Positions 2,847 to 61,722 of a DNA stretch of 64,000 bases are shown piece after piece; position 1 is the stretch's first letter; the number at the start of each line of letters is the position of its first letter. The DNA is from Deltaproteobacteria bacterium (GTDB lineage Bacteria > JAMCPX01), in assembly GCA_023382265.1 (NCBI GenBank), contig JAMCPX010000039.1:1-64000 (forward strand), read 5' to 3'. Made by a program: the position numbers and the translations under genes. The notes below the pieces were generated by a model that was given only the letters and a program-made list of their open reading frames with translations, ran no database searches and was not told the DNA's origin.

Positions 2847-5267
2847 TTAAAAGACCTCTATTCTATAGGTTGTATTTGTAAAAGCCGATGTCCCCTGCAA
2901 CGTGAAAATAGTGTTTCCGTTAAAACTGCCGTTAATATCGAAACTCCCATTCACCACACCGCATCCTACTGCACCGGTGTCGGTGCTGCTGCATGAACCA
3001 ATAGGACCCCCGCTCTGTGTGCTCAATACAACGCCCGCTCCCGGATTTAACCCGTTTATTCCTGACGCCAATGTAAAAGATGAGCCGTCATAAACAGTAA
3101 AACTGCCGTTTGCACCCGGATATACCCTTATGGTTTGTGATGTTATTTCCCGGGCAAGGGTCGTTACTGTTGGATTATTGACCGATATGAGTGTATCAGG
3201 TATGTTTGTAAGCATTGGTATTACTGAACCTGCTTTGATAAACACAGGTATGATATCCATAGGTGCCGGTACCGTAACACTAACGCCGCCTGCGACAGCA
3301 TTGCCTCCATCAAATGGATACCAATTCCCGTTCGGAAGATACACGGCCCTTTGTTTTGCGCCCTGGATTATAACAGGTGCAACAAGCATATCATCTCCAA
3401 ACAAATACTCGTCATCTACAGTTGCGGTATTTGGATCATAGGGATACTCGAGCCATAATGCCCGCATAATAGGTGTACCGTAATCGTGTGCCCGATTCAT
3501 ATAGGTATAGATGTACGGGAATAAAGCGACGTGGAGGTTTGCATACTTTTGAAACATGTTTATCGTATCCTGATCGCTGTTCCAATTCCAATTGGAATAC
3601 AGGTCATATCCGTTGTGTGTTCGCATAACGGGTGTGAAGCACCCGAGTTCTGTCCATCTAAAATAGAGTTCTTTTGTGGACGGGGGACATGACAAACTTA
3701 TATAACCTGCTATATCGCTTGTGACGATAGGTACGCCTGAGATGCCCATGTTTAAATTGGCAATTATTGCGGTGGGAAAACCAAACTGTGTATCAAAATC
3801 TGTGTTCTGATCTCCTGCCCATATAACAGGTTGATATGGCTGTGAACCAAGATAACCTGATCTCATAAAGAATACAAAATCACCCGATGGTATAACCGAT
3901 GACATCAGTTCATAATTTGTTTTTGCCCAAAGTATAGGGTATTCATTGTGCATAACGGCTCCGGTCCCTGCTTTCATGTATGCATCGTAAGGTAGCCATT
4001 CTCCAAAATCTGCCATCCAGCCGCTAAAACCGAGACCTATTGCATTACTCAGATATCCCTGAACCCATGTTGTTGCAGATGGATTAGAAAGATCTACCAT
4101 ACTCTGATTGCCCTGAATACTAAAAAATGTAAAAGGAAGACCAGTAGATTGTGTTATAAGATAGCCGTTTGTTACTGCTGTGCTCCATTGATCCTGAGAT
4201 TCATCGACAAAGCTGTTAAAGTAAGCCATTGCTTTAAATCCTAACGAGTTGAGCGTCATATTGACACCGGCCATCTCGGGATAAAGTGTAAAATCGGGTG
4301 TCCAGTGATAAGGCAGATCATATCCGTTACCTGAACTTTGACCGCCTACCCAGTCCTGGTACCATATAGCGGAGGAAGGGATATCGTCTGAACGGAGCTG
4401 ATATGCGGTATTTAACAGTACAGAACTACCGCCTTCTATTGAGATCCATGGACCTATTACCCATGGAGGTGATAAGGGCTGTCTGCCTACAATAGATGTA
4501 AAATCCTGGACAATGTTTAAGGGCAATTTATCTGAAATGAGTATTATATGCATGCTGCTGTCCCATAGTTTTATTCTTACCTGCTTTGGGTTTGTACTGC
4601 ATAGATCAAACTTGCTGTATGAGGTAGAGCTAATCAGCACACCCGCCGGCGCACTTGTCAGCATAAACGGCTCCGGAAAATATGCTGGATGCAGTGCCAG
4701 TGCTAACCGGGGAGCATCGGGGATATCCTGCAAATACCCATGATCCTGAGCCCAGATCCCAACGATATTTCCCCGCTGGTCGAGGCTGTTAAATTGTTCA
4801 CCAAGACCGTAAAAGTGATCGTTTTTATTACATGCAAACCCCAATGATATCCTGTTTATTGGTTGGACTGATGGTGCTGAGATGTTTAAGCCGAGCATAT
4901 TATTATTAATAGGACTTATCGTCATATAACCATCACCCGCATTTGAACTGATCTTTAGGATTAGCACATCTGGAGACGATTCAATAACATTAAAGGCGCT
5001 GGTTTGCACCCATGATGATGTGTCTGTAATCTCAAAAGAACCCAGCATTTCCTGTACATTAGCCTTGCCATTGCCCCATTCTATGCTGCTCTGGGGTAAG
5101 ATTACTCTATCATATTGATCCACCACGGTTAATACAGGCCCGCTGCCGTTAAGTTGTATTGTAAATGAACCGACCTTGTATGATTTGCTATTGGATGAGC
5201 TTGCACATCCTGATGCCGTGATTACAGATAATAGGGCTATCGAGCATATATAAAGTATTCTTTTCAT
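2847..5267 (-). CDS. Glycoside hydrolase family 31 lipoprotein, sulfoquinovosidase-like (YihQ clade) but substrate uncertain
   Basis: This 806-residue exo-acting alpha-glycosidase is predicted to be anchored on the cell envelope. The N terminus is a lipoprotein signal with a lipobox ending in C21 (ITASGC). The catalytic domain has IWYQDW (301-306), the nucleophile block GWMADFGEWLP (D420) and the acid/base block WAGDQN (D486), then TSDIAGY and FTPVMRTHNG, in the order of GH31. The WMADFGE form and the flanking sequence are closest to bacterial YihQ-type sulfoquinovosidases. However, counting from the shared QDW, the positions equivalent to the sulfonate-binding Arg301 and Trp304 of E. coli YihQ (recalled, aligned by eye) are D317 and Y320, so sulfoquinovose is doubtful. 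The C terminus is beta-rich. RBS AAAGGAG precedes the ATG. The gene stands alone, without a yih-type cluster. Confidence 0.85.
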   Translation of the reverse strand: MKRILYICSIALLSVITASGCASSSNSKSYKVGSFTIQLNGSGPVLTVVDQYDRVILPQSSIEWGNGKANVQEMLGSFEITDTSSWVQTSAFNVIESSPDVLILKISSNAGDGYMTISPINNNMLGLNISAPSVQPINRISLGFACNKNDHFYGLGEQFNSLDQRGNIVGIWAQDHGYLQDIPDAPRLALALHPAYFPEPFMLTSAPAGVLISSTSYSKFDLCSTNPKQVRIKLWDSSMHIILISDKLPLNIVQDFTSIVGRQPLSPPWVIGPWISIEGGSSVLLNTAYQLRSDDIPSSAIWYQDWVGGQSSGNGYDLPYHWTPDFTLYPEMAGVNMTLNSLGFKAMAYFNSFVDESQDQWSTAVTNGYLITQSTGLPFTFFSIQGNQSMVDLSNPSATTWVQGYLSNAIGLGFSGWMADFGEWLPYDAYMKAGTGAVMHNEYPILWAKTNYELMSSVIPSGDFVFFMRSGYLGSQPYQPVIWAGDQNTDFDTQFGFPTAIIANLNMGISGVPIVTSDIAGYISLSCPPSTKELYFRWTELGCFTPVMRTHNGYDLYSNWNWNSDQDTINMFQKYANLHVALFPYIYTYMNRAHDYGTPIMRALWLEYPYDPNTATVDDEYLFGDDMLVAPVIIQGAKQRAVYLPNGNWYPFDGGNAVAGGVSVTVPAPMDIIPVFIKAGSVIPMLTNIPDTLISVNNPTVTTLAREITSQTIRVYPGANGSFTVYDGSSFTLASGINGLNPGAGVVLSTQSGGPIGSCSSTDTGAVGCGVVNGSFDINGSFNGNTIFTLQGTSAFTNTTYRIEVF

Positions 5268-8075: not shown

Positions 8076-8696
8076 ATGAAAAAGATGGTTTTAAGTATTA
8101 CGACTTTGTTTATCATGCTTGGTTTGACGATCAGTGCGTTTGCCGATAATATCGGGGGGGCAGGAGGATCACAATTCACTTTATTACCCATCAAGATAGG
8201 TGTGGGATTCAACAGGCAAATGTATGTTATTCCATCTACGCCGGAGCAGCTAACCTTACCCGGGGGGACTATACAATTACAGCCAACCGCTCCTGCCGAC
8301 ATTTCTATAAGAGTACTTGCAGGACCTTTTGGTGGGGAGTTTGATATCGGGGGAAACCAATATGCTATTACGGGTATCGGAGATGTTAATGTGTTTGATG
8401 TTGGGTTAAAGGCTTTTTATGCGATCATATCCAAGCCCTATGTAAAATTCAATGGAGGTATAGCATTAATGTACACGGATTTAGACGGTAAAAATATGGG
8501 AGCACTAATAGGAACAGGTTTTGACTTCATTGCTGGCCCTGAATTCTTTATTCCACAGATTCCTGAGCTCGGATTCAATATAGAGTTAGGGCTTGGGTAT
8601 CACTCATACTCCTTTAGTGGAGACCATTTTGCAGGTGATGACCTTGGTTTCCGGAATGCCGACTTTCTGCAGGCGGGTATGCATTATTACTTTTAA
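8076..8696 (+). CDS. Secreted outer-membrane beta-barrel-like protein
   Basis: This 206-residue exported protein has a clear signal peptide (MKKMVLSITTLFIMLGLTIS, cleavage likely after AFA, about residue 23). The mature part is glycine- and aromatic-rich, with alternating hydrophobic stretches (FDVGLKAFYAII, YVKFNGGIALMYTDL, FNIELGLGYHSYSF). It ends in HYYF, a C-terminal Phe as in many BAM-inserted proteins. I infer a small 8-strand-type barrel; no specific family is recognised. It has its own promoter (8019-8047), a strong GAGGAGG ribosome site and a hairpin just after the stop, so it is probably monocistronic and well expressed. A second protein of this type lies at 53497. Confidence 0.65.
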   Translation: MKKMVLSITTLFIMLGLTISAFADNIGGAGGSQFTLLPIKIGVGFNRQMYVIPSTPEQLTLPGGTIQLQPTAPADISIRVLAGPFGGEFDIGGNQYAITGIGDVNVFDVGLKAFYAIISKPYVKFNGGIALMYTDLDGKNMGALIGTGFDFIAGPEFFIPQIPELGFNIELGLGYHSYSFSGDHFAGDDLGFRNADFLQAGMHYYF

Positions 8697-14680: not shown

Positions 14681-17014
14681 TTAGTGTTTTCTTTTCGGAA
14701 CCCTGCGGGGCAGCACGAATGCTTTGCCTGTGAGAAGTTCTTTCATTTTTGGTCTGCCAAGTAATTTAGAAAATATACTGTCATTTACCACCGTAATTTT
14801 AAAGGATGTGTTTATCTTGAAAAGGGTGGCAAGTGCATCAAGGGCAGCTCCCTCATTTTTTACAAGCATATATCCCTGGGCAAGTTTATACCATGCAACG
14901 GGGTTGTGCGGCTCAATCTTTGTCAGTTGCAAAGCATACTTTAATGCATCGTTGTAAGCATTTGTTTTTTGCAAACATTCTGTAAGGTTTAATATAGCTT
15001 TAAAATCAGATGGGTTTTCTTTTGTAGCTTCTTTCAGGTAATTGATCGCATTCTGATAGTCAGCTTTCATATAATACGCAGTACCAATAAGGAAATCGTA
15101 TACATCTTTATCCCCGTTGTTCTTTGATAAAGATAAGGCAAGCGCAAGGGCATCATTGACATTATTTGTATTTAGATACGCGCTTATCAGATAAGGACCG
15201 ATTTCTTTGACAGATAAAGGCTGAAGGTCTATTGTTTTTTTAAATTCACTTATGGCTCCAGAAAAATTGTCCTGCTTGTAGTATAAGAAGCCAAGCAATT
15301 TATGACCATAATAGAAGTACGGGTTAAGTCTTAAAACCGTTTTTGCATCTGATATGGCATCGGCATAATCGCGTGTTCCAGCCTCTGCTCTCGAACGATT
15401 GTACAGAATTATGTAGTCATCCGGAGCAAGATTGTAAGCCTTGTTCAAAAGGTTTCTCGCCTTTTGAGGCATCTTAAGGTCTATATAAGTTTCTGCTTCT
15501 GTATTATAGATGTCTGCAAATGCCTGTTTATAAGAAAACCCGGCAAGGTTGCTCAATAAAAATACTATGATTATTAACAGCCCCGTGTAGAATACGGAAA
15601 GGAAGTAGTTATGAGTCATCCCGATTTCAAAATCATACTTCCATCGCCATTTAAAACTTGTTAGTTTTTTTAAAGTAGATATAAAACCGTACTCATCCTC
15701 AAAATATCGGTACTTTCTTTTCCCCACAATGAGCCCTGCAAAAAACCAGAACATAATAGAAGAAGCAGGATTCTCAAGATTGAATGTGAAAAATGCAGTT
15801 ATCAGTGCAGCGACAATACCTGTAGAGAGTGCTATCATCCATAGTATATTCTGGGTATCATCTTTTGCATCCTTTATACTTTTAAAGGCAGTAATAAATA
15901 TCTCTATTATAAACCAGAGGAATAGCAGTAAACCCACAATACCGAGTTCAAACAAGATTTGCAGGTATTCATTGTGCGCATTGTTGAGGTATCTCAGTTC
16001 AAGCCAATCTGTATTTTTTAGTGCTTTTACCTCATAAAGAGGTATATTGATCTCATAATTGCCTATGCCAACACCCAATAAAGGGTTATCTTTAAGTTCT
16101 TTTAAAGTGCTGTCCCATACCAGAATTCTGAAAGAATTAGATGGATAGCTGCTATTGAATATGCTTTCACCTCTATAAATAAGTTCTCTGCCCTGTTTTG
16201 TGAATGCAACACTAATAAGCAGAATAGCAGCTATACCTGTTAATGTATAAAGTATAATCCGTTTTATTTTTCTATTAAACAACGAATGCACTTTATATAT
16301 ATTAAGCAGGCTAACAAAATAGATAGCTGCAAATACAAGTGCTACCCAGCCGGCACGATTCTTACCTATGAGTACGTAGGAGAGGGATAGTATGATCCCT
16401 AAATAGGTAATGTATTTTATTATAGCCTTCGATTCAATAAAGAAAAGCGATATTAAAAGAGGCATTACCATCACGATATAATCTGTTGTAAAATTTGTTA
16501 GTCCCATGGTGCTTGCCGGATTTGGCCTGCCATAAAGATCCAGAGGTGATGAAATTATTTTGGAAAATTGCAGCAACCCATATGCACTTACAATCAGTGA
16601 TACTATCACTATGATTATGCTAACCGTCCGAAGCTTAATATTGTTTGCATAATAAATAGCAAAGAAGAACAAGCCTTGATAGGCTATCTGTTTTGCTATA
16701 AACTGAAATGAGAGATGCGGATTGTAAGAATTAAACACCGATAAAAGTACTGCGATATCAAGTAAAATCAATGGGATTAAAACAGGGGCATAAAAAAATT
16801 CTATTTTTTTGTACAGTATCGATCTTAAAAAGTAAGCTATTAGCACAGGAAAGAAAAATACATAAATTACAAATACCTTTGTCCAGACGTATTCATATCT
16901 GTAAAAAGTAATCGGGACAAAAAACAGAAGCATCAAAAGACTCACCACACTTATGTAATCAAGTCTGCTTGCAGTTTTATTTGTATGATTAATTAAAATC
17001 TTATTCTCACTCAT
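14681..17014 (-). CDS. O-antigen ligase-type (Wzy_C) membrane protein with C-terminal TPR repeats
   Basis: This is a 777-residue polytopic inner-membrane protein. Residues about 15-490 contain around 12 hydrophobic spans with the Wzy_C/O-antigen ligase region, including the large loop and NNAHNEYLQILFELGIVG near residue 345, typical of WaaL-like ligases and PglL-like glycosyl or polymer transferases. Residues about 500-750 are TPR repeats (for example ALKYALQLTKIEPHNPVAWY). The likely role is transfer or polymerisation of a lipid-linked glycan in the periplasm, with the TPR part contacting an acceptor or partner. The substrate cannot be told from sequence. Its start overlaps the end of the radical SAM gene by 8 bp, so the two are translationally linked. 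It could also be an O-oligosaccharyltransferase acting on proteins. Confidence 0.8.
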   Translation of the reverse strand: MSENKILINHTNKTASRLDYISVVSLLMLLFFVPITFYRYEYVWTKVFVIYVFFFPVLIAYFLRSILYKKIEFFYAPVLIPLILLDIAVLLSVFNSYNPHLSFQFIAKQIAYQGLFFFAIYYANNIKLRTVSIIIVIVSLIVSAYGLLQFSKIISSPLDLYGRPNPASTMGLTNFTTDYIVMVMPLLISLFFIESKAIIKYITYLGIILSLSYVLIGKNRAGWVALVFAAIYFVSLLNIYKVHSLFNRKIKRIILYTLTGIAAILLISVAFTKQGRELIYRGESIFNSSYPSNSFRILVWDSTLKELKDNPLLGVGIGNYEINIPLYEVKALKNTDWLELRYLNNAHNEYLQILFELGIVGLLLFLWFIIEIFITAFKSIKDAKDDTQNILWMIALSTGIVAALITAFFTFNLENPASSIMFWFFAGLIVGKRKYRYFEDEYGFISTLKKLTSFKWRWKYDFEIGMTHNYFLSVFYTGLLIIIVFLLSNLAGFSYKQAFADIYNTEAETYIDLKMPQKARNLLNKAYNLAPDDYIILYNRSRAEAGTRDYADAISDAKTVLRLNPYFYYGHKLLGFLYYKQDNFSGAISEFKKTIDLQPLSVKEIGPYLISAYLNTNNVNDALALALSLSKNNGDKDVYDFLIGTAYYMKADYQNAINYLKEATKENPSDFKAILNLTECLQKTNAYNDALKYALQLTKIEPHNPVAWYKLAQGYMLVKNEGAALDALATLFKINTSFKITVVNDSIFSKLLGRPKMKELLTGKAFVLPRRVPKRKH

Positions 17015-45033: not shown

Positions 45034-46029
45034 TTAAACAGAAAATAACCCGGTAAGCAGTGCAAATATTATTGATATATAACCCGGCATCTTCTTTACA
45101 ATGAGTGATAGAATAAGCATAGCTGTCAATAGAATTGCAGAAAGCAGGGACGAAGATAAAATGAACCATATTGAAATGAAGAGATAGGTGTAGAGTAATT
45201 TCTTATTATGCTTGAGGTTTGAAATCATAGAGACCGTGAATATACCAAAGACAAACATATCAAGCGGACGAATAGAAATATCACGTTTTGTAATGACATC
45301 ATAAATAAACACACCCGATAATCCGATAAATACATTCAGTATGGGCAATAACGAGATAGATCTAATGCTCTCGGCTATAAGTTCTCTTCCGTCCTCTGTA
45401 AAAGGAAGAACAAACAGCATTGCTAAATTGAATACAACAGCAAGAAACAATTTACCCCTTTCATTGCTAAAATGCGCTGCAAGCCATAAAAAAGGCTTCA
45501 GAGTATCGGTACTTTTTAAAGCGACTGACAATACGTATATAAGTATCACAGCGAGAAGGCTTTTGAATAAGTTTTTTGTTCGTACAAAAGAATATATGAA
45601 TACAAGTAAAAGTATGATCGCGACTTCAAGCTTTATCCCAGGTGTGATGCCTGTTTTGCTATAAAAGAAAATGAGATTATGAAAAAAATGTAAAGAACCC
45701 GTATAATGATAGTATGATGGGTGGTGAAAAATATATTCGTCAAACACGGGCGGCATGATAATCAGCCAGAAACCGTATAAGAATAGATTGGATATGTTTT
45801 TGAGCGGTATGCTTGCAATTATCGAGACTATCGTTGTTCCAGCAAGAAATGCCAGCCAGAAATATGCAATAGCATCATATCTTAACATCAACGGGATGTT
45901 CATGTTAGCGGGATGAAAAATGCGAGCTTCAAACAATCCTCTTATCTCCGCATAAATTCCGACGACCAGATAAATGAACGGATAATAAAATCTGTCTTTT
46001 TCTAAAAATTTAAAAAAGCGATCAAGCAT
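45034..46029 (-). CDS. Polytopic membrane protein, unknown function
   Basis: This 331-residue protein has about nine hydrophobic segments and short loops. It is not recognised. The charged N terminus (MLDRFFKFLEKDR) and the motif EARIFHPANMNIPLMLRYDA precede the first long spans. A His/Tyr-rich loop (FHHPSYYHYTGSLHFFHN) lies in the middle and could bind a ligand or metal. It follows dapL by 28 bp on the same strand. A prenyltransferase-like or other lipid-modifying role is possible, but I see no diagnostic motif. Confidence 0.6.
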   Translation of the reverse strand: MLDRFFKFLEKDRFYYPFIYLVVGIYAEIRGLFEARIFHPANMNIPLMLRYDAIAYFWLAFLAGTTIVSIIASIPLKNISNLFLYGFWLIIMPPVFDEYIFHHPSYYHYTGSLHFFHNLIFFYSKTGITPGIKLEVAIILLLVFIYSFVRTKNLFKSLLAVILIYVLSVALKSTDTLKPFLWLAAHFSNERGKLFLAVVFNLAMLFVLPFTEDGRELIAESIRSISLLPILNVFIGLSGVFIYDVITKRDISIRPLDMFVFGIFTVSMISNLKHNKKLLYTYLFISIWFILSSSLLSAILLTAMLILSLIVKKMPGYISIIFALLTGLFSV

Positions 46030-53282: not shown

Positions 53283-53311
53283 TTGATATGTTACAATACA
53301 AAAAATGTCAA
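53283..53311 (-). promoter_or_regulatory. Possible promoter for the GAF/receiver pair
   Basis: On the minus strand, TTGACA (53306-53311) and TATCAA (53283-53288) are separated by 17 bp, 23 bp before the ATG at 53259. The -35 is perfect and the -10 moderate. Confidence 0.45.
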
Positions 53312-59385: not shown

Positions 59386-61722
59386 ATGCTAATATCATTA
59401 AAATCAAAGTTGCTGTTCTTGGTAGCCATCATATCGTTATTTATAGGATGTTCAAGGAATGGAGCCGGGATTATGAAAGAACCATCCCTGGATAAGTATG
59501 GCGGTTTAACAGATATCAGCGGGAATAATCAATCAGGGTTCTTCAGAACACAGCTTATAAATAACAGATGGCTTTTTGTTGATCCGGATAATCATCCTTT
59601 TTTCTCACTCGGCATTAATCATGTCAGTTTTTATGGAGATGAATCGCCCTTATTAGGGTTTGCCGAGTATCCCCATAATTTATTATCCTTGTTCCCATCA
59701 TACTTTTCACAATACGCAACAGAGCAATGGGTGCAGGAGGTTATAAACAGGTACAAAGAACTTGGTTTTAACACACTCGGGGCATGGTCTGACAATGGGC
59801 TTACCACATTTCAAGATGAAATTCCGTATACAGTTATCTTAGGTTTTGCAAGTTCTGTTGAGGGTGGTTTTGGCTCTGATAACTGCCCATCTGTCAGTAA
59901 TGGTTTTTCATCAGATTTTCCCGACGTTTATGACCCCAGGTTTAAGAAGGATGCTTATACGTATGCGCAACAGGCAATCATGCCGGGTTTTATGAACGAC
60001 CCGTGGCTTGTGGGTTATTTCATCGATAATGAGCTATCATGGTTTGGCGGCGCCCAGTTAATATACAATCCTGCCCATACACTTGCCGATGATTTTATTG
60101 CACTGCCATCTACGTATGCCGGTAAACAGTACTGGGTAAATACTTTTCTACAACAAAAATTGGGGTATAGCCTTGATATGCTGAATCAGCTTTATGGTAC
60201 AACATTTACACGCTGGTCTCAATTACTCGATATTACCGGACTTCCCGATGATTCATCACATCCTCAGATACAATTGGATAAACAGGCATTTCTTTATGAT
60301 ATAGCACTTACATATTTTTCCGTAACAAACGCAGCGATCAAGTCCGTGGACCCGAATCATCTTAATTTATGTGCAAGGTTTGCATCTTATGCGCCCGATC
60401 AGGTAGTTGAAGCCGCATCTCAATATTGCGATGTCATAAGCGTAAATGATTACTATGCACTTGATAATTCCTTATCCAACATTGTCCTCGGAGATCCTGT
60501 TAAAAGATGGGAACACATGCTCTGGCTTTCAACTATATTTAACCCTTATTATGGTAAGCCTTTTATGCAGTCAGAGTTCGGGACAAGGGCAGAAGATTCA
60601 GGCCTGCCGAATTTAGACGGCGCCGGTTGGTCTGTTAAAACACAGAACGACAGAGGCCAATTTTACAGAGAAGACATTAATAGACTTCTATCTCTAAAGA
60701 TAAACGGTATTACATTCTTGGCAGGCTTTCATTGGTTCGAATGGTCGGATGAGCCGGCAACAGGCAGGTTTGATGGCGAAAACAGCAATTACGGCTTTGT
60801 TAATATAAAGGATGAGCTGTATGAAACCTTTTTTAATAGTATTATCAATACAACAACAATGCTTTTTGCTCAACTCGCAGATATCAATAACCCTGCATTG
60901 AATTCACCCGATTTCATAACATCAACATCCGGCAATAATGGCGGTATAGTTTTAGGCTGGGATGCTGTTAAAGGTGCCGATAGCTATACAGTTATCTTAT
61001 CTCCGTACAGGAGTATGCCTGAAAGGTTTACGTTGAGGTTTAACAACATATATGAAACGAGTTTTACGATTCCATATAACCTGCCTCAAGGACGGTGGTG
61101 GTTCAGTGTGAAAGCAGACGGCTTGAATAACATTCAAAGCGACTTCACCACGGTTACAGGTTTTGATATCACTGCACCGGATAATAGTGCAGTATCATGT
61201 ATGAGTATGAACAATCTAAGCTGCTTTACAAATAATATCGTGGACACATTTCCTCAACCCGACAACAGTATCGGCTCTGCTGTAATATTGCCGTCAACAA
61301 ATATCAGGGACATAGGCACACAATCGGGTAGAATTAGTTTTACACTCAATAGTCTTTCCCTGCTTGTGGCATTGAACAGTTTAACCGAAGTAACCTTATC
61401 TATGAATCAATCCATTCCTACAACAGGATTTAATACCTTGAGTTTTGATGTCTATCCGGAGGCTGTTTACACTCCATCAGGTCGCTACAGAAGTGCAACT
61501 GATTTTGTAAATGTGAGATTGACAAACAATGGAGTTGTTTTTTATGACTCAGCTTTACCGCAATCTCTACCCGCATTTCAATGGTCGACGATATCAATAC
61601 CTATTACAGGAACATATGTATTGGTTTCATTTTATGTAAACAAAAACACATCCGATATCCCTTATGATCAAAGGATCACATTTTACCTTGATAATATGAA
61701 TTTGACCCAAAAAATACGATGA
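59386..61722 (+). CDS. Secreted glycoside hydrolase lipoprotein (GH50/agarase-like, clan GH-A)
   Basis: This 778-residue protein has a lipoprotein signal with C22 (LFIGC). The (beta/alpha)8 catalytic domain (about 55-480) has RWLFVDPDNHPFFSLGINHV, DVYDPRF and WLVGYFIDNELSW with probable acid/base E216. The probable nucleophile E397 is in KPFMQSEFGT. These motifs resemble GH50 agarases and related GH-A enzymes, but the substrate cannot be settled. A fibronectin-like domain follows (about 505-600), and a C-terminal beta-sandwich, possibly carbohydrate-binding, runs to the end. It lies 2 bp after the xer gene, a likely co-transcript without functional link. Its stop is 13 bp from convergent gmk. 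Confidence 0.78.
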   Translation: MLISLKSKLLFLVAIISLFIGCSRNGAGIMKEPSLDKYGGLTDISGNNQSGFFRTQLINNRWLFVDPDNHPFFSLGINHVSFYGDESPLLGFAEYPHNLLSLFPSYFSQYATEQWVQEVINRYKELGFNTLGAWSDNGLTTFQDEIPYTVILGFASSVEGGFGSDNCPSVSNGFSSDFPDVYDPRFKKDAYTYAQQAIMPGFMNDPWLVGYFIDNELSWFGGAQLIYNPAHTLADDFIALPSTYAGKQYWVNTFLQQKLGYSLDMLNQLYGTTFTRWSQLLDITGLPDDSSHPQIQLDKQAFLYDIALTYFSVTNAAIKSVDPNHLNLCARFASYAPDQVVEAASQYCDVISVNDYYALDNSLSNIVLGDPVKRWEHMLWLSTIFNPYYGKPFMQSEFGTRAEDSGLPNLDGAGWSVKTQNDRGQFYREDINRLLSLKINGITFLAGFHWFEWSDEPATGRFDGENSNYGFVNIKDELYETFFNSIINTTTMLFAQLADINNPALNSPDFITSTSGNNGGIVLGWDAVKGADSYTVILSPYRSMPERFTLRFNNIYETSFTIPYNLPQGRWWFSVKADGLNNIQSDFTTVTGFDITAPDNSAVSCMSMNNLSCFTNNIVDTFPQPDNSIGSAVILPSTNIRDIGTQSGRISFTLNSLSLLVALNSLTEVTLSMNQSIPTTGFNTLSFDVYPEAVYTPSGRYRSATDFVNVRLTNNGVVFYDSALPQSLPAFQWSTISIPITGTYVLVSFYVNKNTSDIPYDQRITFYLDNMNLTQKIR

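Follow-up and report, generated by a model that had tools for sequence, protein, structure and literature searches.

A predicted exported GH31 glycosidase from a Deltaproteobacterium with a sulfoquinovosidase-like core and a C6 pocket lacking basic residues

The window analyzed here, a 64,000-nucleotide stretch of contig JAMCPX010000039.1 from a Deltaproteobacteria bacterium, carries a gene for a lipoprotein of glycoside hydrolase family 31 (GH31) with a catalytic core like that of the sulfoquinovosidases (SQases), among them YihQ of Escherichia coli. On balance, the product appears to be a lipid-anchored, exported, retaining exo-alpha-glycosidase belonging to an uncharacterised GH31 clade outside the SQases, with a neutral gluco-configured sugar as its probable substrate. 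By the tests run, it is probably not an SQase, though it is built like one and would share the same chemistry. Its clade is probably a side lineage that never possessed a sulfonate site, rather than an SQase lineage whose pocket has changed. The features of the gene and its product are as follows (residues are those of the window protein).

2847..5267, minus strand: GH31 lipoprotein gene, 806 amino acids (coordinates include the stop; basis: open reading frame, Pfam, and the ratio of nonsynonymous to synonymous substitution rates, dN/dS)
5205..5267, minus strand: type II signal peptide with lipobox, residues 1-21 (LSVITASGC; Cys21 is the predicted lipidation site)
3504..4478, minus strand: GH31 TIM barrel, residues 264-588 (PF01055)
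4293..4358, minus strand: C6-pocket loop, residues 304-325 (Q304, D317, Y320, H321), of the same length as in SQases and free of Arg and Lys
4317..4319, minus strand: D317, at the position of YihQ R301 (alignment)
4308..4310, minus strand: Y320, at the position of YihQ W304 (alignment)
4008..4010, minus strand: D420, predicted nucleophile, aligned with YihQ D405
3810..3812, minus strand: D486, predicted acid/base, aligned with YihQ D472
3702..3704, minus strand: Y522, at the position of YihQ Y508 (alignment)
2850..3197, minus strand: distal C-terminal beta domain, residues 691-806, missing from SQases (match ends in VIA-align and tail lengths)

Catalytic core and C6 pocket

The open reading frame (ORF) starts with ATG and contains no internal stop, and three Pfam profiles match its translation above their curated cut-offs: PF01055 (GH31 TIM barrel, 160.2 bits), PF21365 (proximal C-terminal domain, 95.3 bits), and PF13802 (N-terminal mutarotase-like domain, 37.2 bits). 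The best sequence match in the Protein Data Bank (PDB) is E. coli YihQ (5aed; E 5.6e-100, residues 64-682), while the score against the NCBIfam alpha-glucosidase equivalog PRK10426 (NF007746), 512.6 bits, does not reach the cut-off of 553. The structure prediction and superposition on YihQ proposed in an earlier note on this DNA yielded an AlphaFold2 model, built from a 52-row alignment, with a mean predicted local distance difference test score of 92.7 and a predicted template modelling score of 0.92. In a Foldseek search with this model, the first 23 rows were all SQase chains (best 5oht, E 1.6e-62), and VIA-align placed it on YihQ (5aee) with Z 49.8 at 2.2 A over 644 residues, nine SQase entries spanning Z 48.5-49.8.

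In an alignment to the YihQ encoded by E. coli, taken from the genome as the pocket reference, the window protein has D420 at D405, D486 at D472, D317 at R301, Y320 at W304, and Y522 at Y508, with E278 and Q304 at the further pocket positions Q262 and Q288. R301 and W304 of YihQ we take to be contacts of the sulfonate, and Y508 presumably holds a sulfonate-bound water. Both catalytic Asp residues are invariant in all 52 sequences of the 52-row alignment, and the earlier note had rightly recognized YihQ-type catalytic blocks with D420 as nucleophile and D486 as acid/base; Asp405 of YihQ is named as a catalytic residue in a published report (PMC11968277). The pocket loop aligns without gaps between the window protein and four SQases of solved structure, and the placement of D317 and Y320 at the sulfonate Arg and Trp positions, given with correct residue numbers in the earlier note, is therefore unambiguous. 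A loop misalignment concealing an Arg, as in an alignment that would put Arg into the sulfonate site, was ruled out: the loop is as long as those of the four solved SQases, and residues 304-325 include no Arg or Lys at all.

Among the nine sequences of the clade, the pair corresponding to YihQ 301 and 304 is Asp-Tyr in seven and Val-His in the other two. H321 is retained in 7/9 clade sequences, and the same position is Arg in 31 of the 78 others, while R469, R537, and R549 are retained in 9/9. The Tyr of the SDIAGY motif, once proposed as a mark of the YihQ clade, does not serve as such, as the Y508 position holds Tyr in the window protein and Phe in 5/9 of its own clade and 36 of all 87 sequences.

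Phylogeny and domain make-up

Of 95 relatives found, 80 were taken in, and 103 sequences were aligned, 87 of which entered the larger tree (LG model); the 16 left out comprise other GH31 types (L003, L013-L017, L021-L023, L025-L027, L029) and fragments (L030, L104, L105). A rooted tree of 53 sequences, drawn from these and YicI, was inferred under a mixture model, with YicI, L012, L013, L014, and L020 as roots. Pocket columns were excluded from both trees, which were quick runs supported by the Shimodaira-Hasegawa-like approximate likelihood-ratio test only. ORFs were taken from stop to stop, leaving false N-terminal extensions in some sequences (e.g., L005), and L072 and L084, which have an internal stop in the matched range, were kept in the alignment and the 87-sequence tree with the stop letter removed and excluded from the 52-row alignment.

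The clade of the window protein forms a separate branch on both trees. In the smaller set, the SQase-containing group (29 sequences) is united without it at a support of 98, and forcing the clade together with the Arg/Gln-Trp sequences costs 34.4 log units (approximately unbiased (AU) test, p 0.029). The exact neighbor of the clade is unsure, L011 being placed there with support 81 on a long branch.

Domain architecture separates the same groups. VIA-align matches to SQases stop at residue 684-716 of the model, whereas with Agd31B, E. coli YicI, and a number of further GH31 enzymes the match extends to residue 806, indicating that SQases are without the distal C-terminal domain present in the window protein. 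By alignment, the tail beyond residue 690 comprises 81-117 amino acids in 9/9 clade sequences (one of which, L008, is missing part of its C-terminus), compared with 0-20 in 57/57 sequences of the SQase-containing group (Gln-Gln-Asp/Gly-Tyr, Gln-Trp, and Arg-Trp), five of which are artificially short (three PDB sequences given as the aligned part only; L070 and L110 at contig ends). Full chains of solved SQases have 672-699 residues. Sequences with Glu at position 288 are mixed: 14/18 have tails of 84-123 amino acids, and four (L065, L073, L074, L079) have 18-29 and no distal domain. The earlier note suggested that the enzyme may have moved away from sulfonated substrates; the rooted GH31 phylogeny, with the AU result, and the domain make-up place the clade outside the SQase group instead. 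The direction of change is not provable from the tree, but with tree and domain evidence combined, a lineage that never had a sulfonate site is the simpler reading.

Across the 87 sequences, the 301/304 pairs are Gly-Tyr (24), Gln-Trp (17), Asp-Tyr (13, seven inside the clade and six elsewhere), Arg-Trp (10), Arg-Glu (5), and others (18), such that Asp-Tyr or Gly-Tyr (37/87) is commoner than Arg-Trp (10/87). The Arg-Trp pair is confined to the SQase-containing group, and four of its ten bearers are solved SQases. Since at least five changes of the Arg-Trp state are required on the smaller tree, this pair came or went repeatedly within the Trp-bearing group. The idea that Arg itself is confined to SQases fails, as Arg occupies position 301 in 17/87 sequences (ten with Trp, five with Glu, one with Gly, and one beside a gap). 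Eleven of the 17 Gln-Trp sequences (L082, L089-L092, L095-L098, L100, L103), from Leptospiraceae and other spirochaetes near the SQases, have Gln-Trp rather than Arg-Trp and carry an Arg one residue past the Trp. In L042, L043, L046, L047, and L069, from Myxococcales and Deltaproteobacteria, Arg at 301 is accompanied by Glu at 304.

Comparison with known enzymes

The GH31 SQases of solved structure (E. coli YihQ, 5aed/5oht; Agrobacterium tumefaciens, 5ohy; Eubacterium rectale SftG, 6pnr; BmSQase, 8r56) match the window protein in fold, catalytic blocks, both Asp residues, and loop length. Unlike them, it has D317 and Y320 for Arg and Trp and E278 for Gln or Lys, together with a lipoprotein signal, the distal C-terminal domain, and roughly half as many charged residues. 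Whereas yihQ sits in the yih cluster, no sulfoglycolysis gene was recognized beside the GH31 gene. Uncharacterised GH31 proteins with Asp-Tyr or Gly-Tyr from Myxococcota, Wallbacteria, and other groups (including L044, L045, L048, L051, L053, L059, and L060) also have Tyr for Trp and no Arg, and several of them (L044, L045, L048, L060) bear a lipobox in a crude scan; however, nearly all have Gln-Gln at 262/288, and they lack the distal domain, have normal charge, and fall inside the SQase-containing group. Agd31B, an alpha-transglucosylase of Cellvibrio japonicus (4ba0), shares the GH31 architecture of the window protein, distal domain included (VIA-align Z 47.4, 2.4 A, 622 residues), but only 22% identity, and an SQase-length pocket loop was not seen in the aligned GH31 outgroups (YicI, L012, L013, L014, L020). 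A similar question arises for the NAD-dependent SQases of another glycoside hydrolase family, in which one sulfonate-site position is changed; there, unlike here, the authors report that the sulfonate site is intact in models.

Proposed function and alternative explanations

As a lipoprotein with predicted lipidation at Cys21, the enzyme would face the periplasm or the cell exterior. A lipobox, ASGC in the window protein, is present in 7/7 clade sequences with a complete N-terminus according to our own crude pattern scan, the remaining two of the nine (L009 and L010) being cut at contig ends; the lipoprotein part of the earlier claim of a surface lipoprotein is thus upheld, while its surface part is not, as the sequence gives lipid anchoring only. 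D420 would attack C1 of a terminal alpha-glycoside and D486 would give the proton, after which water would release the sugar with its configuration retained. Residues common to SQases (W302, D305, W417, R469, W483, and H551, among others), in roles presumed from that likeness, would hold the sugar ring, which is for this reason expected to be gluco-configured. Because the C6 pocket lacks basic residues, a sulfonated substrate is disfavoured, and the pocket with D317 and Y320 would take an uncharged CH2OH through hydrogen bonds. A neutral alpha-glucoside may thus be regarded as the plainest substrate judging from the residues present, with glucose or a close neutral relative freed outside the cytoplasm, either from oligosaccharides or from alpha-glucosides linked to lipid or polymer.

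Several observations weigh against this assignment. SQases are the nearest characterised enzymes in both sequence and fold; the rejection by the AU test is modest and concerns a group defined once the tree had been seen. Position 301 evolves fast, with 13 states (including the gap) in 87 sequences, and the substrate is therefore unreadable from this position alone. Synonymous divergence is saturated in 7/8 pairs that include the window gene, and no sugar transporter or glycan cluster was found among seven Pfam-scanned neighbor proteins or by eye in the ORF lists.

The same likeness to SQases raises the question of whether the protein is still an SQase, or a binder of another anion at C6, that uses other residues such as H321, protonated in acid; the retention of His in most of the clade, at a position where Arg is frequent elsewhere, fits this idea. 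We regard it as improbable, given a pocket loop devoid of Arg and Lys, in which an ionised D317 would repel a sulfonate, a PRK10426 score below the cut-off, and the lack of any match to E. coli YihS and YihT in the window's own genome, a search made without a positive control. Even less probable is descent from a true SQase whose Arg and Trp disappeared as basic residues were being shed from acid-exposed proteins in an acidophile, so that the pocket reflects compositional drift and the substrate is whatever remains. Lys and Arg are indeed scarce in the clade core (3.6%, compared with 7.8-10.7% elsewhere), yet groups with a normal content also lack the pocket Arg (24 Gly-Tyr sequences and six Asp-Tyr sequences outside the clade), the clade keeps R469, R537, and R549 throughout, and both the tree and the C-terminal domain put it outside the SQases.

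A more serious, though still rather unlikely, alternative is that the substrate is another neutral or amino alpha-glycoside, such as an alpha-xyloside, alpha-galactoside, alpha-6-deoxyhexoside, or 6-amino sugar, with D317 pairing with a C6 amine or lining an emptier pocket. YicI chains are the best profile matches after SQases, an Asp is able to pair with a cation, and xylosidases, galactosidases, and N-acetylgalactosaminidases are listed among GH31 members in one published source (PMC9061262). However, the invariant catalytic-domain residues are common to gluco-configured SQases, in sugar-binding roles presumed from that likeness, and Asp would bind a cation poorly at low pH, should exposure to acid be real. 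As for the cationic substrate suggested earlier, nothing tested favours it, and an Asp side chain is partly neutral at low pH. A neutral gluco-configured substrate is accordingly the assignment we retain, with the reservations given above.

Conservation and paralogues

Orthologs of at least 60% identity are present in 7/9 genomes of the family, the window's own included, and missing from G001 and G008; G006 and G007 have two ortholog copies each. Of the 36 clade pairs, 28 have a finite dS, with pairwise dN/dS of 0.05-0.18, and the GH31 gene is under purifying selection in the clade. A pseudogene is ruled out by the open frame and the low dN/dS. The second copies in two related genomes, L018 and L019 (the same as L035 and L037), have the Val-His pocket with both catalytic Asp residues intact; a change of specificity after duplication is possible. 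The genome of the window has two further GH31 genes, both encoding charge-depleted lipoproteins (L112, 7549-10011 on contig C30, and L113, 7050-9089 on contig C11), and the lipoprotein of contig C30 and the window protein have a common C-terminal sequence ending in YRIEVF.

Genomic neighborhood

A response-regulator gene of the same strand lies 31 bp ahead of the GH31 gene, which is followed by a PlsX-like gene (named by eye). The seven scanned neighbors encode a phosphatase-like protein, a response regulator, an acyl-CoA dehydrogenase, two lipoproteins with beta-propellers of the pyrroloquinoline quinone type, a multihaem cytochrome, and a LigB-type dioxygenase. The possibility of a glycan-utilisation cluster pointing to the substrate was examined, but none was seen among the scanned or listed neighbors, where genes of sulfoglycolysis or sulfoquinovose catabolism were likewise not recognized. 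When the first 16 kb of the window were compared with eight ortholog loci, nothing recurred except the GH31 gene, along with frames antisense to it, and a single weak match to a response regulator. At three ortholog loci, an acyl-CoA dehydrogenase gene lies just before the GH31 gene (L036, 6044-7300, by Pfam; L031, 2828-4114, and L033, 4694-5965, by N-terminal likeness), preceded in L033 and L036 by a propeller gene. Nine neighbor proteins of four relatives with other pockets revealed no pattern, comprising an aldehyde dehydrogenase, a secretory lipase, an isocitrate dehydrogenase, an amidase-domain protein, a methyltransferase, a Band-7 protein, an iron-sulfur protein, and two without matches. 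Promoter-like sites were fewer than in shuffled sequences (9 compared with 14.0), and terminator-like sites were about equal (4 compared with 3.2).

Charge depletion

The clade core, counted over residues 150-690 of the window protein, contains 12.4% charged residues, compared with 19.0-22.2% in the remaining groups. Values in the same genome are 13.3% and 12.5% for the two additional GH31 lipoproteins and 9.9% for a GDSL-lipase lipoprotein (L112, 1646-3421, plus strand), whose gene lies about 4 kb before the GH31 gene of contig C30. Within the window, exported-looking ORFs have 13.6% (at 8076) and 15.5% (at 59386) versus 21-34% in cytoplasmic-looking ones, and membrane or unassigned ORFs are sometimes low too (12.0% at 45034, 11.2% at 53305, and about 18% at 14681 and 23217). 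The ORF at 59386-61722 (plus strand), far from the GH31 gene, encodes a charge-depleted lipoprotein with a weak match to a GH42-like barrel (22.3 bits, cut-off 21). Related records bear sample codes such as FK_Sedi, DBS2-1, and DX4, which may denote mine sites. The depletion of charge in the clade is as expected of a protein exposed to acid, and such exposure would be a plausible condition for these enzymes. Acid-stable amylases with low positive charge are described in a published source (PMC6172347), which also mentions an exception.

Implications

Annotation by best match would label the window protein and its relatives as YihQ-like alpha-glucosidases or SQases. The Arg-Trp pair and the distal domain part likely SQases from the wider exported set, a distinction that matters when degraders of sulfolipid are counted. 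Literature searches, judged from titles and the beginnings of abstracts, found no prior reports or assays of GH31 proteins with such altered pockets among the papers listed. The series of pockets constitutes a natural set of proteins for testing how sulfonate recognition originated on a glucosidase scaffold, and the charge-depleted clade offers glycosidases with possible activity at low pH.

Collectively, the findings on the window protein draw attention to a broad set of YihQ-like exported enzymes whose C6 pockets have been rebuilt. We tentatively suggest, as a scenario that may well need revision, that YihQ stands within a large GH31 radiation, much of it exported, in which the C6 pocket was rebuilt many times (Arg-Trp, Gln-Trp, Asp-Tyr, Gly-Tyr, Arg-Glu, and Val-His) and the sulfonate site was one late outcome. 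The clade described here would then be a separate acid-adapted branch with a substrate of its own, which may have split into Asp-Tyr and Val-His forms after duplication.

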